Source: Candidatus Gastranaerophilales bacterium
Lineage (GTDB): Bacteria > Cyanobacteriota > Vampirovibrionia > Gastranaerophilales > Gastranaerophilaceae
Length of the DNA stretch: 64,000 bases
Reading direction: 5' to 3'
NCBI GenBank assembly: GCA_944324305.1
Contig: CALUVV010000002.1
Span: forward strand, 124,001-188,000
Part shown: piece after piece, positions 16,452 through 51,951 of the stretch
Numbering within the stretch: the stretch's first letter is position 1
Layout of the letters: every line of letters begins with the position of its first letter
Notes under the pieces: generated by a model
Databases searched by the model: none
Told to the model about the DNA's origin: nothing
The model's input: only the letters and a program-made list of their open reading frames with translations
Position numbers and translations under genes: made by a program

Positions 16452-17513
16452 ATGACGAAAAAAATTATGCTGGTTAGATTATCTTCACTCGGGGACGTTA
16501 TTTTTAATATTCCTCTGGCAAATGTTCTGCAGCAAAACGGATTTGAAGTTACATGGCTTGTTTCTGAAAAAGGTATAGATATAGTCAAAAATAATCCGGC
16601 AGTTAAAAGAGCCGTTCTCATTCCGTTGAAAAGATGGAAGAAAGAAGGATTTTCAATAAAAAATACAATTGAATTCTTTAAAATATTAAAAAGCTTACGT
16701 GATGAACATTTTGACATTGCAATAGATACCCAAATGATGTTTAAAAGTATGATTTGGATGAAGCTTTGCGGTGCAAAAAGACGAATTTGTTTTAAATACG
16801 GCCGTGAATTTTCAAGCCTCGGCGGAAACGAGGTTATTGACGCGGCTCCTAATCCGAATTTTTCAACACACGCAATATTCCAGCATATGTGGTATGCAAA
16901 ATATTTAGGACTTGAAGGTACAGATGAAGTGAAGTTTACACTTCCGCCGACAGGTAAAGAAACAGTTGATAAAGTTAACATTCTTTTAAAAGATCTTGAT
17001 AAATCAAAACCAATGGTTGTAATCTGCCCCGCGACAACATGGCGTCTCAAACACTGGAATAAAGATAATTGGAGAAAAGTTGTCGATGCAATAAAAGACA
17101 AATGTTCGCTTGTTTTTACGGGAACAGCGGGTGATAAAGACTTAATTTCATACATAGGCGGAGATAACTTTATAAATCTTGCAGGACAGACAAATATTAA
17201 GGATTTAATAGAAATTTTTTCGCGTGCCGCACTGGTTATGGCTCCCGATTCGGGCAGCGCCCACCTTGCAAGAGCAACGGAAATTCCTGCGGTAATTTCA
17301 ATATTCTGTTGTACGCCGCCGACATCTTACGGACCGTTCGGTGATGACAAAAAATATTTTGCTCTTAACGGAAAACTTAAGTGCCAGCCATGCCATACAA
17401 GAAAATGCCCGCTTCAGGGAGCGGATGCCGAACAGTGTTTAAACAGCCCCCCCCCCGAAGAAATTATAAATATTGTAAACAACATATTACAAAACTCAAA
17501 ACATAGTGTATAA
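16452..17513 (+). CDS. glycosyltransferase family 9, heptosyltransferase-like
   Basis: Transfers a sugar, classically ADP-heptose, to lipopolysaccharide core. 353 residues with N-terminal RLSSLGDVIFNIP and C-terminal nucleotide-sugar site APDSGSAHLARA, both typical of WaaC/RfaC. The ATG directly abuts the ROK kinase stop. The last codons include a run of ten C (17447-17456) encoding Ser-Pro-Pro-Pro. In the present reading it is in frame, but loss of one C stops translation a few codons later (CCG AAG AAA TTA TAA), and a gain alters and shortens the tail. WaaC versus another GT9 role in this lineage is uncertain. Confidence 0.86.
   Translation: MTKKIMLVRLSSLGDVIFNIPLANVLQQNGFEVTWLVSEKGIDIVKNNPAVKRAVLIPLKRWKKEGFSIKNTIEFFKILKSLRDEHFDIAIDTQMMFKSMIWMKLCGAKRRICFKYGREFSSLGGNEVIDAAPNPNFSTHAIFQHMWYAKYLGLEGTDEVKFTLPPTGKETVDKVNILLKDLDKSKPMVVICPATTWRLKHWNKDNWRKVVDAIKDKCSLVFTGTAGDKDLISYIGGDNFINLAGQTNIKDLIEIFSRAALVMAPDSGSAHLARATEIPAVISIFCCTPPTSYGPFGDDKKYFALNGKLKCQPCHTRKCPLQGADAEQCLNSPPPEEIINIVNNILQNSKHSV
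17447..17456 (+). repeat. poly-C tract (10 C) inside the GT9 gene
   Basis: Mononucleotide run of ten C within coding sequence of an A+T-rich genome. One of only two ten-base C/G runs in the window. It is in frame as read; slippage would change the last 18 or so residues. Confidence 0.9.
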
Positions 17514-50001: not shown

Positions 50002-50694
50002 TTATTTACATTTTGTTTTCCTGCTCCAGTCTAAGTCATTGCAGTGTAAATAATCCATATTTTCATTAATAAGCACCCACGCTGCACAAGCTTTACCATC
50101 CCCTGAATTTTTATCTTTACAATCATCAGAAAAAGAATATCTTTCCTCTTCTTTAGTCCCGAACGGTATTACTCCGTATTTAGTTATATTAAAAAAGAAA
50201 ACATCCCTTCCTACTTGATTTGGCAGTTTATTACCGTTTATATCAATACTGAATTCTCCGCAAACATTTTTAAGAGCCTGTGTAGTACCTCTCACGTTAT
50301 TACAACTATTTCCTGACGCATATCTTATGATGCTGCCGTCAATAAGTTGTGCATAATATGAACTGTCAGAAAAATAATCATTTTTTCCAAAAGCACTTTC
50401 CATTCCGCCATTCAATGATTTATATTGCATAATGGCACAAGACTTATCACCGGGTTGGCATAACTTAACTGTTTTAAACATAGATACGATATTGTCACCG
50501 CTGTAATCTTCAGGATTTTCAATTTGGTTCAGCCTGATTGCCTGCTCAAGTATTGAGTAAAACTTTTTCAAAGCGACAACAGTTTGTTTTTCTTTATAAT
50601 GTGTAACTAATGAAGGCATTGTCATAGCTGCAACTACACCAATAACTCCCAAAGTTACCAAAACTTCAGCCAGCGTAAATCCATTTTTGCTCAT
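50002..50694 (-). CDS. type IV prepilin-like protein (module 3)
   Basis: 230-residue pseudopilin with a five-residue leader MSKNG then FTLAEVLVTLGVIGVVAAMT and MPSLVTHYKEKQTVVAL. The globular part has several cysteines (QPGDKSCAIM, NSCNNVRG, KACAAWVL), probably paired. GGAGG stands eight bases before ATG 50694, preferred over an upstream in-frame ATG. Divergent from an XRE regulator, with only 69 bases between starts. Confidence 0.92.
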   Translation of the reverse strand: MSKNGFTLAEVLVTLGVIGVVAAMTMPSLVTHYKEKQTVVALKKFYSILEQAIRLNQIENPEDYSGDNIVSMFKTVKLCQPGDKSCAIMQYKSLNGGMESAFGKNDYFSDSSYYAQLIDGSIIRYASGNSCNNVRGTTQALKNVCGEFSIDINGNKLPNQVGRDVFFFNITKYGVIPFGTKEEERYSFSDDCKDKNSGDGKACAAWVLINENMDYLHCNDLDWSRKTKCK

Positions 50695-50729
50695 AATAAT
50701 ATTATCCTCCATCCATTTTATATATACAA

Positions 50730-50764
50730 TACATGTAATATTATACGTTTTACAATTGTATACA
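50730..50764. promoter_or_regulatory. cluster of palindromes between prepilin and XRE gene (module 3)
   Basis: TACATGTA (50730-50737), TACAATTGTA (50751-50760) and TGTATACA (50757-50764) are perfect palindromes. The middle one contains a TACAAT -10, seven bases before the XRE ATG 50764; the last overlaps that ATG. Autorepression is the likely use. Confidence 0.52.
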
Positions 50765-51039
50765 TGCAATACAAAAGCGAAAAAACTTTACATTTAATTA
50801 ATCAACTCGGGAAAATTATTAAATCCAGCAGATTAAAGAAAGATAATATTTCTCTCAATACATTTGCATATGAATATGACCTAAACCCTGGTAATCTCAG
50901 CAGAGTTGAAAACGGTCAAATTGAGCCCAAAATAACAATGCTTTGGCGGATTTCTGAGGCTTTGGGAGTTCCTTTATCGGAGATTATTATACAACTTGAA
51001 AAAGAATTAGGTAAAGACTTTTCAATCACTGACAAATAA
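50764..51039 (+). CDS. XRE-family transcriptional regulator (module 3)
   Basis: 91 residues: N-terminal arm, helix-turn-helix about 15-70 (LGKIIKSSRLKKDNISLNTF, NPGNLSRVENG), then LSEIIIQLEKELG. TACAAT seven bases before the ATG and no Shine-Dalgarno indicate a leaderless message. Divergent from the module 3 prepilin and convergent with the frameshifted prepilin. Confidence 0.88.
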   Translation: MQYKSEKTLHLINQLGKIIKSSRLKKDNISLNTFAYEYDLNPGNLSRVENGQIEPKITMLWRISEALGVPLSEIIIQLEKELGKDFSITDK

Positions 51040-51100: not shown

Positions 51101-51951
51101 TTATTTAGGAAGACATTCCCAATACCCTTTTGAAGCATCATCAGGGCAGACATCATTAATAGCATACCATGCGCAGCCTATCCCGTTTGCTGTTTGTTTG
51201 GAATTTTTTGAACAGGGCTTTCCCATCAAATTATTTATGCCGCCCGAACTTAAATCGCCAAGTTCATCTTCTGTATAATCCTTTATTTTCTTTGCCCCGA
51301 CAAGTTTATCACTTGCATCCTGAACTCTGAATACAAATAAATCATGCCCAAATCTGTTGGGACCTTTTTTACCGTTTATATCTGTCGTAAAACTGATTTG
51401 TCTGCCGTCAATTGAAGTTCCAACTCCTACCATGATGGCTGCTCCGTTAGACAAAATCTTATCAGGAAGATTTAAGCTGAAATCTTTATTATCAGCATAT
51501 ATTTTTATGCTCCTGTCAGAATAAATTGAATAATCATTCATTTTGACGGAAATATTACCTATAACCTTCATACGTTTGTAAAATGCTGCCTCAAACTCAG
51601 CTGCACGCGGGTATATGTTAAGTTCAGGTGAATATTCCGTATAATCTGTAAATAAACTGTCGCTTCCGAGGTCCTGCTTTGTTAATATTAAAGCCTGATA
51701 AATCAAAGAATACATTGATTTAAATTGATTTTCCAATACTTTTTTTCTATGCTCAACAATTAAATTCGGCAAGGTTAAAGCCGCAACAATCCCAATAATT
51801 CCCAGAGTTATCAAAACCTCTGCCAGAGTAAATGCGGGTTTAGGAGCTACAGAATTGCCCCCCCCCCGAATGCTACGCAGGCAGATACCTCAGCACAAAA
51901 GTTGTGAAACTTTTCATGTAACGGCATCTGTTTTGCTTCTGTAGTTTTCAT
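51101..51951 (-). CDS. type IV prepilin-like protein, out of frame at a poly-G tract
   Basis: From ATG 51951 (AAAGGAG upstream, 14 bases after mtnA) the frame runs MKTTEAKQMPLHEKF... to ten G and stops at TAG within a few codons. The prepilin body in another frame reads AFTLAEVLITLGIIGIVAAL and ends CAWYAINDVCPDDAS. With 11 (or 8) G the two join into a 283-residue protein with a 40-plus-residue leader ending Ala. As read the gene is off, unless a sequencing error removed a G. It is last in the ruvC-mtnA operon, with its own terminator. Confidence 0.8.
51858..51867 (-). repeat. poly-G tract (10 G) in the prepilin leader
   Basis: Ten C on the plus strand (G on the coding strand), 84-93 bases after the ATG. 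One more G restores the frame. Confidence 0.92.

Follow-up and report, generated by a model that had tools for sequence, protein, structure and literature searches.

In Neisseria, phase variation of pilC and opa depends on a repeat within the stretch that encodes the leader of a surface or pilus protein, and the genes described here are alike in this respect. Unlike here, the Neisseria loci are few and have a wide length range, and to our knowledge a fixed default-off length has not been reported for them. In Campylobacter, the poly-G/C phasome comprises 5-81 genes per strain, with G9 accounting for 53% and G10 for 26%, and the fraction of genes that are on in isolates is close to neutral drift (PMC6321876). 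The present loci resemble this phasome in that poly-G/C tracts of 9-10 reside in surface and glycan genes with translational on/off control, but differ in that 89% are G10 and that a single on length of 11 is common to nearly all prepilins (compared with PMC6321876). The closest pilus system is found in another gut commensal, Bifidobacterium breve, in which G tracts switch sortase pili and the on length is enriched in mice (PMC9187656). As described there, the pilus genes are split by the G tract at the assembled length and a one-base change fuses the frames, which is also the case here; however, the B. breve strain has two loci with mixed lengths, as opposed to well over a hundred loci here, and the accessible part of that report mentions neither strand polarity nor conserved flanks (PMC9187656). 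Poly-G phase variation of surface genes is already well known (PMC6321876; for B. breve pili PMC9187656), and what is new compared with the known poly-G loci is the scale, the near-fixed length, the shared on length with its built-in stop, and the perfect strand polarity. A literature search for phase variation in Gastranaerophilales returned no paper, and wider searches covering tracts, strand and phase variation returned no report of this arrangement.

Results

The window, that is, the whole stretch of 64,000 nucleotides that was analysed, corresponds to positions 124001-188000 of contig 2 of a Candidatus Gastranaerophilales genome (2.197 Mb, 16 contigs). A sequence-only reading had reported ten Gs in a prepilin leader behind an ATG with a good Shine-Dalgarno sequence (SD), a frame ending in TAG just after the tract, and restoration of the frame by 11 or 8 Gs. 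All of this was borne out by counting bases (Table 1): the frame starting at the ATG encodes 34 amino acids (MKTTEAKQMPLHEKFHNFCAEVSACVAFGGGAIL), and either 11 or 8 Gs join it to the intact AFTLAEVLITLGIIG prepilin frame. The tract is bordered by G on either side of the plus strand, which equals C on the G strand. The encoded protein has the N-terminal cleavage/methylation motif with a hydrophobic helix, scoring 21.9 bits against TIGR02532 (IV_pilin_GFxxxE; cut-off 16.3) and, marginally below the cut-off of 21.2, 20.3 bits against PF07963. A small XRE-like regulator gene (50764-51039) sits in divergent orientation between two prepilin genes. At the second tract of the window, located in a heptosyltransferase-like gene, other lengths would alter just the last ~20 residues.

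Table 1. Positions of the tracts and associated features within the window
Feature	Position	Strand	Remark
G10 tract (C10 on +) in prepilin leader	51858-51867	-	off at 10, predicted to be on at 11
Leader of 28 codons, from ATG (51951-51949) up to the tract	51868-51951	-	SD AAAGGAG just upstream
TAG stop of the ten-G frame (51849-51847), 8 nt past the tract	51847-51849	-	
Prepilin-type protein, mature part and cleavage region (AFTLAEVLITLGIIG...)	51101-51838	-	ORF; assembled frame open, without start codon
Neighbouring prepilin without tract, short leader MSKNGFTLAEV	50002-50695	-	
Second G10 tract (C10 on +), C-flanked, at codon 331 of 353 of the glycosyltransferase family 9 gene 16452-17513 (+)	17447-17456	-	in frame at 10

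The window tract is not a one-off but a member of a genome-wide and genus-wide set. Chance alone would give about 0.14 G/C runs of at least 10 in a 2.2-Mb genome of the same composition, while the genome yielded 185 overlapping G10 matches, corresponding to ~170 tracts; of those flanked by C, 165 are exactly 10 and 5 are 11 long. In a 464-kb sample, consisting of the window and twenty 20-kb stretches, G/C runs of 1-6 show a normal fall-off, runs of 7-9 are absent, and the 47 long runs have lengths of 10 (42), 11 (4) and 13 (1). These runs are preceded by C in 45 and followed by C in all 47 cases. In the genus, the C-flanked tracts counted over 33 genomes comprise 79 of length 9, 1458 of length 10 and 95 of length 11 (summed from the table), and in the order's other genera each genome gave 0-6 overlapping matches. 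The motif also occurs in related loci, which come from records titled Candidatus Gastranaerophilales MAGs and "Fusobacterium sp. CAG:439"; the genome under the latter title (FR900404-FR900479) groups with Gastranaerophilales here, and the title looks misassigned. The viral contigs searched gave neither a match to the motif nor a relative.

Most sampled tracts belong to pilin genes. Scoring of 150 among 211 candidates gave at least 146 N_methyl genes in the genome, and 33 of the 46 places with a prepilin signature in the sample have a tract at most 260 nt upstream. Together with a few prepilin-like genes of slightly different signature, about 35 of the 47 sampled tracts thus lie in leaders of the prepilin type, with the ATG 7-10 (or about 28) codons away. 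The remaining ones are inside other open reading frames, including GT9, GT2 and PMT_2 glycosyltransferases, the majority of which read through in frame with ten Gs. As in SSR contingency loci, the targets are surface structures, prepilins and glycosyltransferases, and a change by one unit toggles the reading frame between off (10) and on (11).

Within the sample, all 32 tract prepilins that were scored need 11 Gs, 28 of them being assembled at 10 (off) and 4 at 11 (on). The genome has well over a hundred pilin genes, most of them out of frame owing to exactly ten Gs close to the start, each of which would probably be turned on by one additional G; this layout is common to nearly all related genomes. 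Among all loci read in the genus, 154 of 168 need 11, and they cover the three codon phases as well as both coding strands. The G-type prepilins among them, i.e. those co-directional with replication, are distributed over phases 0, 1 and 2 as 52, 34 and 25, and the position of the stop moves with the codon phase. A stop occurs at most 15 nt from the tract in 94 of 97 of these genes in the ten-G frame, as opposed to 13 of 97 in the nine-G frame and a background of 29% of positions in the long open reading frames of the window; the genes are paralogous and the counts therefore not independent, yet three phases and several genomes concur. Loci L153-L177 were excluded from this statistic because they had been found with a pattern that contains the motif. 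The TA of the stop is supplied by TTA (65), CTA (21) or GTA (7), all stop-carrying leucine codons ending in A, although CTA makes up just 2-3% of leucine codons. In our view, this reflects selection for a clean off state when ten Gs are present, which strongly indicates that ten is a real state and no miscall. Among the C-type prepilins, an early stop is not enriched (10 of 38). In the examples inspected, we noticed no suitably framed ATG, GTG or TTG between the stop and the mature N-terminus that might allow translation to restart.

The orientation of the tracts follows replication. In the genome designated G007, all 69 tracts among the matches listed fit two replichore-like blocks with two switch points, and the 46 tracts of G043 likewise form two such blocks. 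The sign of the GC skew in G007 flips in the same intervals as the tract orientation, and the 16S gene is on the G strand of the tracts; by the usual rules, the G run would therefore be read in the leading-strand sense. In the genome harboring the window, no stray orientation was found among the 100 places listed, and tract orientation matches the local GC skew, which is noisy per stretch, in 34 of the 47 sampled cases. Leading-strand polarity of the kind known from KOPS and Chi was thus found in three genomes. The dnaA gene (G000, C1:105562-106065) is located deep inside a uniformly oriented tract block and hence does not mark the replication origin deduced from polarity; because of this position at 105 kb, GC skew and the rRNA gene were used as origin markers instead. 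Prepilin genes co-directional with replication carry G10, while head-on ones carry C10 within a different leader, e.g. M..KALRVAPPPP, and a TTWARGCT-like sequence is present 7-10 nt 3' of the G run in the majority of G-type leaders and in some C-type ones.

The prepilin genes that are assembled as "off" are under purifying selection. Between the genome of the window and G004 (~90% identity over one 20-kb stretch), pooled dN/dS is 0.11 for prepilins with a tract (10 reciprocal pairs; where a tract was seen, almost all are assembled in the off state) and 0.10 for tractless ones. The G004 ortholog of the window prepilin is 98% identical, and in both genes a run of ten leaves the prepilin out of frame; as read from the printed sequence, small deletions in the flanks of the G004 ortholog lead to a required length of 9 or 12 rather than 11. 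Tract length is equal in 5 and different in 7 of 12 matched tract pairs, some of the differing pairs being at scaffold joins and two matching one and the same G004 tract. The G004 assembly is of the MetaHIT type and has N-run scaffold gaps and repeated half-tracts exactly at G tracts (L116, L208, L218, L234, L235). Several MAG contigs start within about 200 nt of a tract.

Discussion

The layout, reading frames, length distribution, selection on stop and coding region, and strand polarity were established directly. Building on these, we consider it likely that the tract is a DNA-level translational on/off switch and part of a default-off, phase-variable pilin repertoire; that its length changes in cells and that protein is made at 11 is inferred. 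At ten Gs, the default, the leader frame would run into the stop a few bases past the tract and no prepilin would be made, while the gain of one G would join leader and prepilin so that the protein is produced. Slippage or a similar process would alter each tract independently in living cells, so that the cells of one population would differ in which few pilins of a large repertoire they show. It may be the tract and its orientation relative to replication, and not the gene, that determine the common length of ten; prepilins would have evolved to be off at ten, with most other tract genes (glycosyltransferases and some unassigned proteins) being in frame at this length. The sequence-only reading had described a homopolymer at this place in the leader as the classic site of slipped-strand phase variation. 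Its core, off at 10 and restored at 11, fits our results, but the near-fixed ten, the need for 11 in nearly every gene whatever the codon phase, the constant C flanks and the replication orientation would not be expected from the classic model. Several findings count against our preferred explanation: simple slippage does not predict that genes needing 11 should be far commoner than genes needing 9, the tract lengths are far tighter than those of Campylobacter, the C-type prepilins lack an enriched early stop, and every assembled tract prepilin seen in G007 is off. Shared ancestry of the leaders may account for part of the uniformity at 11. Loss of mismatch repair was considered as a cause of slippage and rejected, as MutL is present in 38 of 39 genomes and the only one in which it was missed is 84% complete.

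The main rival is programmed -1 frameshifting, or slippage during transcription, at G10/C10 tracts of fixed length, by which the DNA would always hold ten and all these prepilins would be made at a low level through recoding. It would account for the uniform need of a -1 shift in every codon phase, the stop of the unshifted frame just past the tract, the near-fixed length and the purifying selection on the coding part. We nevertheless regard it as unlikely, since the same arrangement occurs where the mRNA has C10 (proline codons), 9s and 11s exist naturally, and tracts of 10 are also found in frame within other genes. Folding of four leaders gave no sign of a conserved RNA structure beside the tract, the leader of the window beating its shuffles and z being about 0 in the other three. 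The perfect replication polarity is left unexplained by recoding; together with the C10 leaders of head-on genes and the TTWARGCT-like companion, it indicates a cause at the DNA level and fits poorly with a mechanism acting solely at the ribosome. Tract orientation switches at only two points each in G007 and G043, in G007 where the GC skew changes, and this polarity and the constant C flanks might instead point to a polar chromosome motif similar to Chi or KOPS, whose sites merely happen to fall in pilin genes. This, however, is scarcely credible: such a motif should be dispersed regardless of gene content, yet around three quarters of the sampled sites are in prepilin-type leaders at short distances from the ATG, and the design of frame and stop would have no explanation.

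An isolated sequencing or consensus error, the simple rival named in the sequence-only reading, is strongly disfavoured by the recurrence of the layout in dozens of paralogs and ~28 related genomes and by the selection for the ten-G-frame stop. A systematic artefact, in which the tracts are truly 11 in all cells but called as 10, draws on the error-proneness of G tracts on Illumina, as stated in the B. breve report (PMC9187656), and on the G004 scaffolds with their gaps at tracts. We judge it very improbable, as independent assemblies concur, 11s are called where present, several other genes' tracts are in frame at 10, and selection for a stop built with rare CTA codons would make no sense in a frame that is never read.

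Returning to the DNA-level switch, it might be speculated that the C-G10-C tract and its TTWARGCT companion in the prepilin leaders form a sequence-specific, replication-coupled device. A dedicated process would recognise the tract on one replication strand, reset it to exactly 10 and now and then extend it to 11, which would allow a few pilins at a time to be drawn from a default-off bank of over 100; we put this forward tentatively and consider it doubtful. If the switch as such is correct, the Gastranaerophilales, an uncultured gut lineage and cyanobacterial sister group, would have a poly-G phase-variable repertoire that ranks among the largest known from sequence and that rests on default-off, type IV pilin-like proteins. 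Gene callers would then truncate or miss many prepilins in tract-bearing genomes. The about 1,600 matched tracts also represent a natural set for asking why a homopolymer holds one length, how its stability depends on the direction of replication, and how selection acts on reading frames near a mutational equilibrium.

Within the genus, the genomes differ. The tracts of G002 (L061-L066) are G runs of 8-16 with mixed flanks and resemble ordinary slippage loci, in a genus with otherwise fixed 10s, while G022 and G039 have ~100 prepilins each, are almost tract-free and have mostly short leaders among those sampled; G013 and G045 likewise count as tract-free. This contrast suggests that the device belongs to part of the genus and that a fixed length is characteristic of tracts with C flanks. 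In G007, C-flanked tracts of 11 were looked for and not found; accordingly, all assembled tract prepilins seen in this genome are off. In genomes with few or no tracts (L133, L137, L138, L117), some prepilin leaders seem to hold translated repeat-like insertions (e.g. CTCGCCCCAACGGGGAGAGGG).
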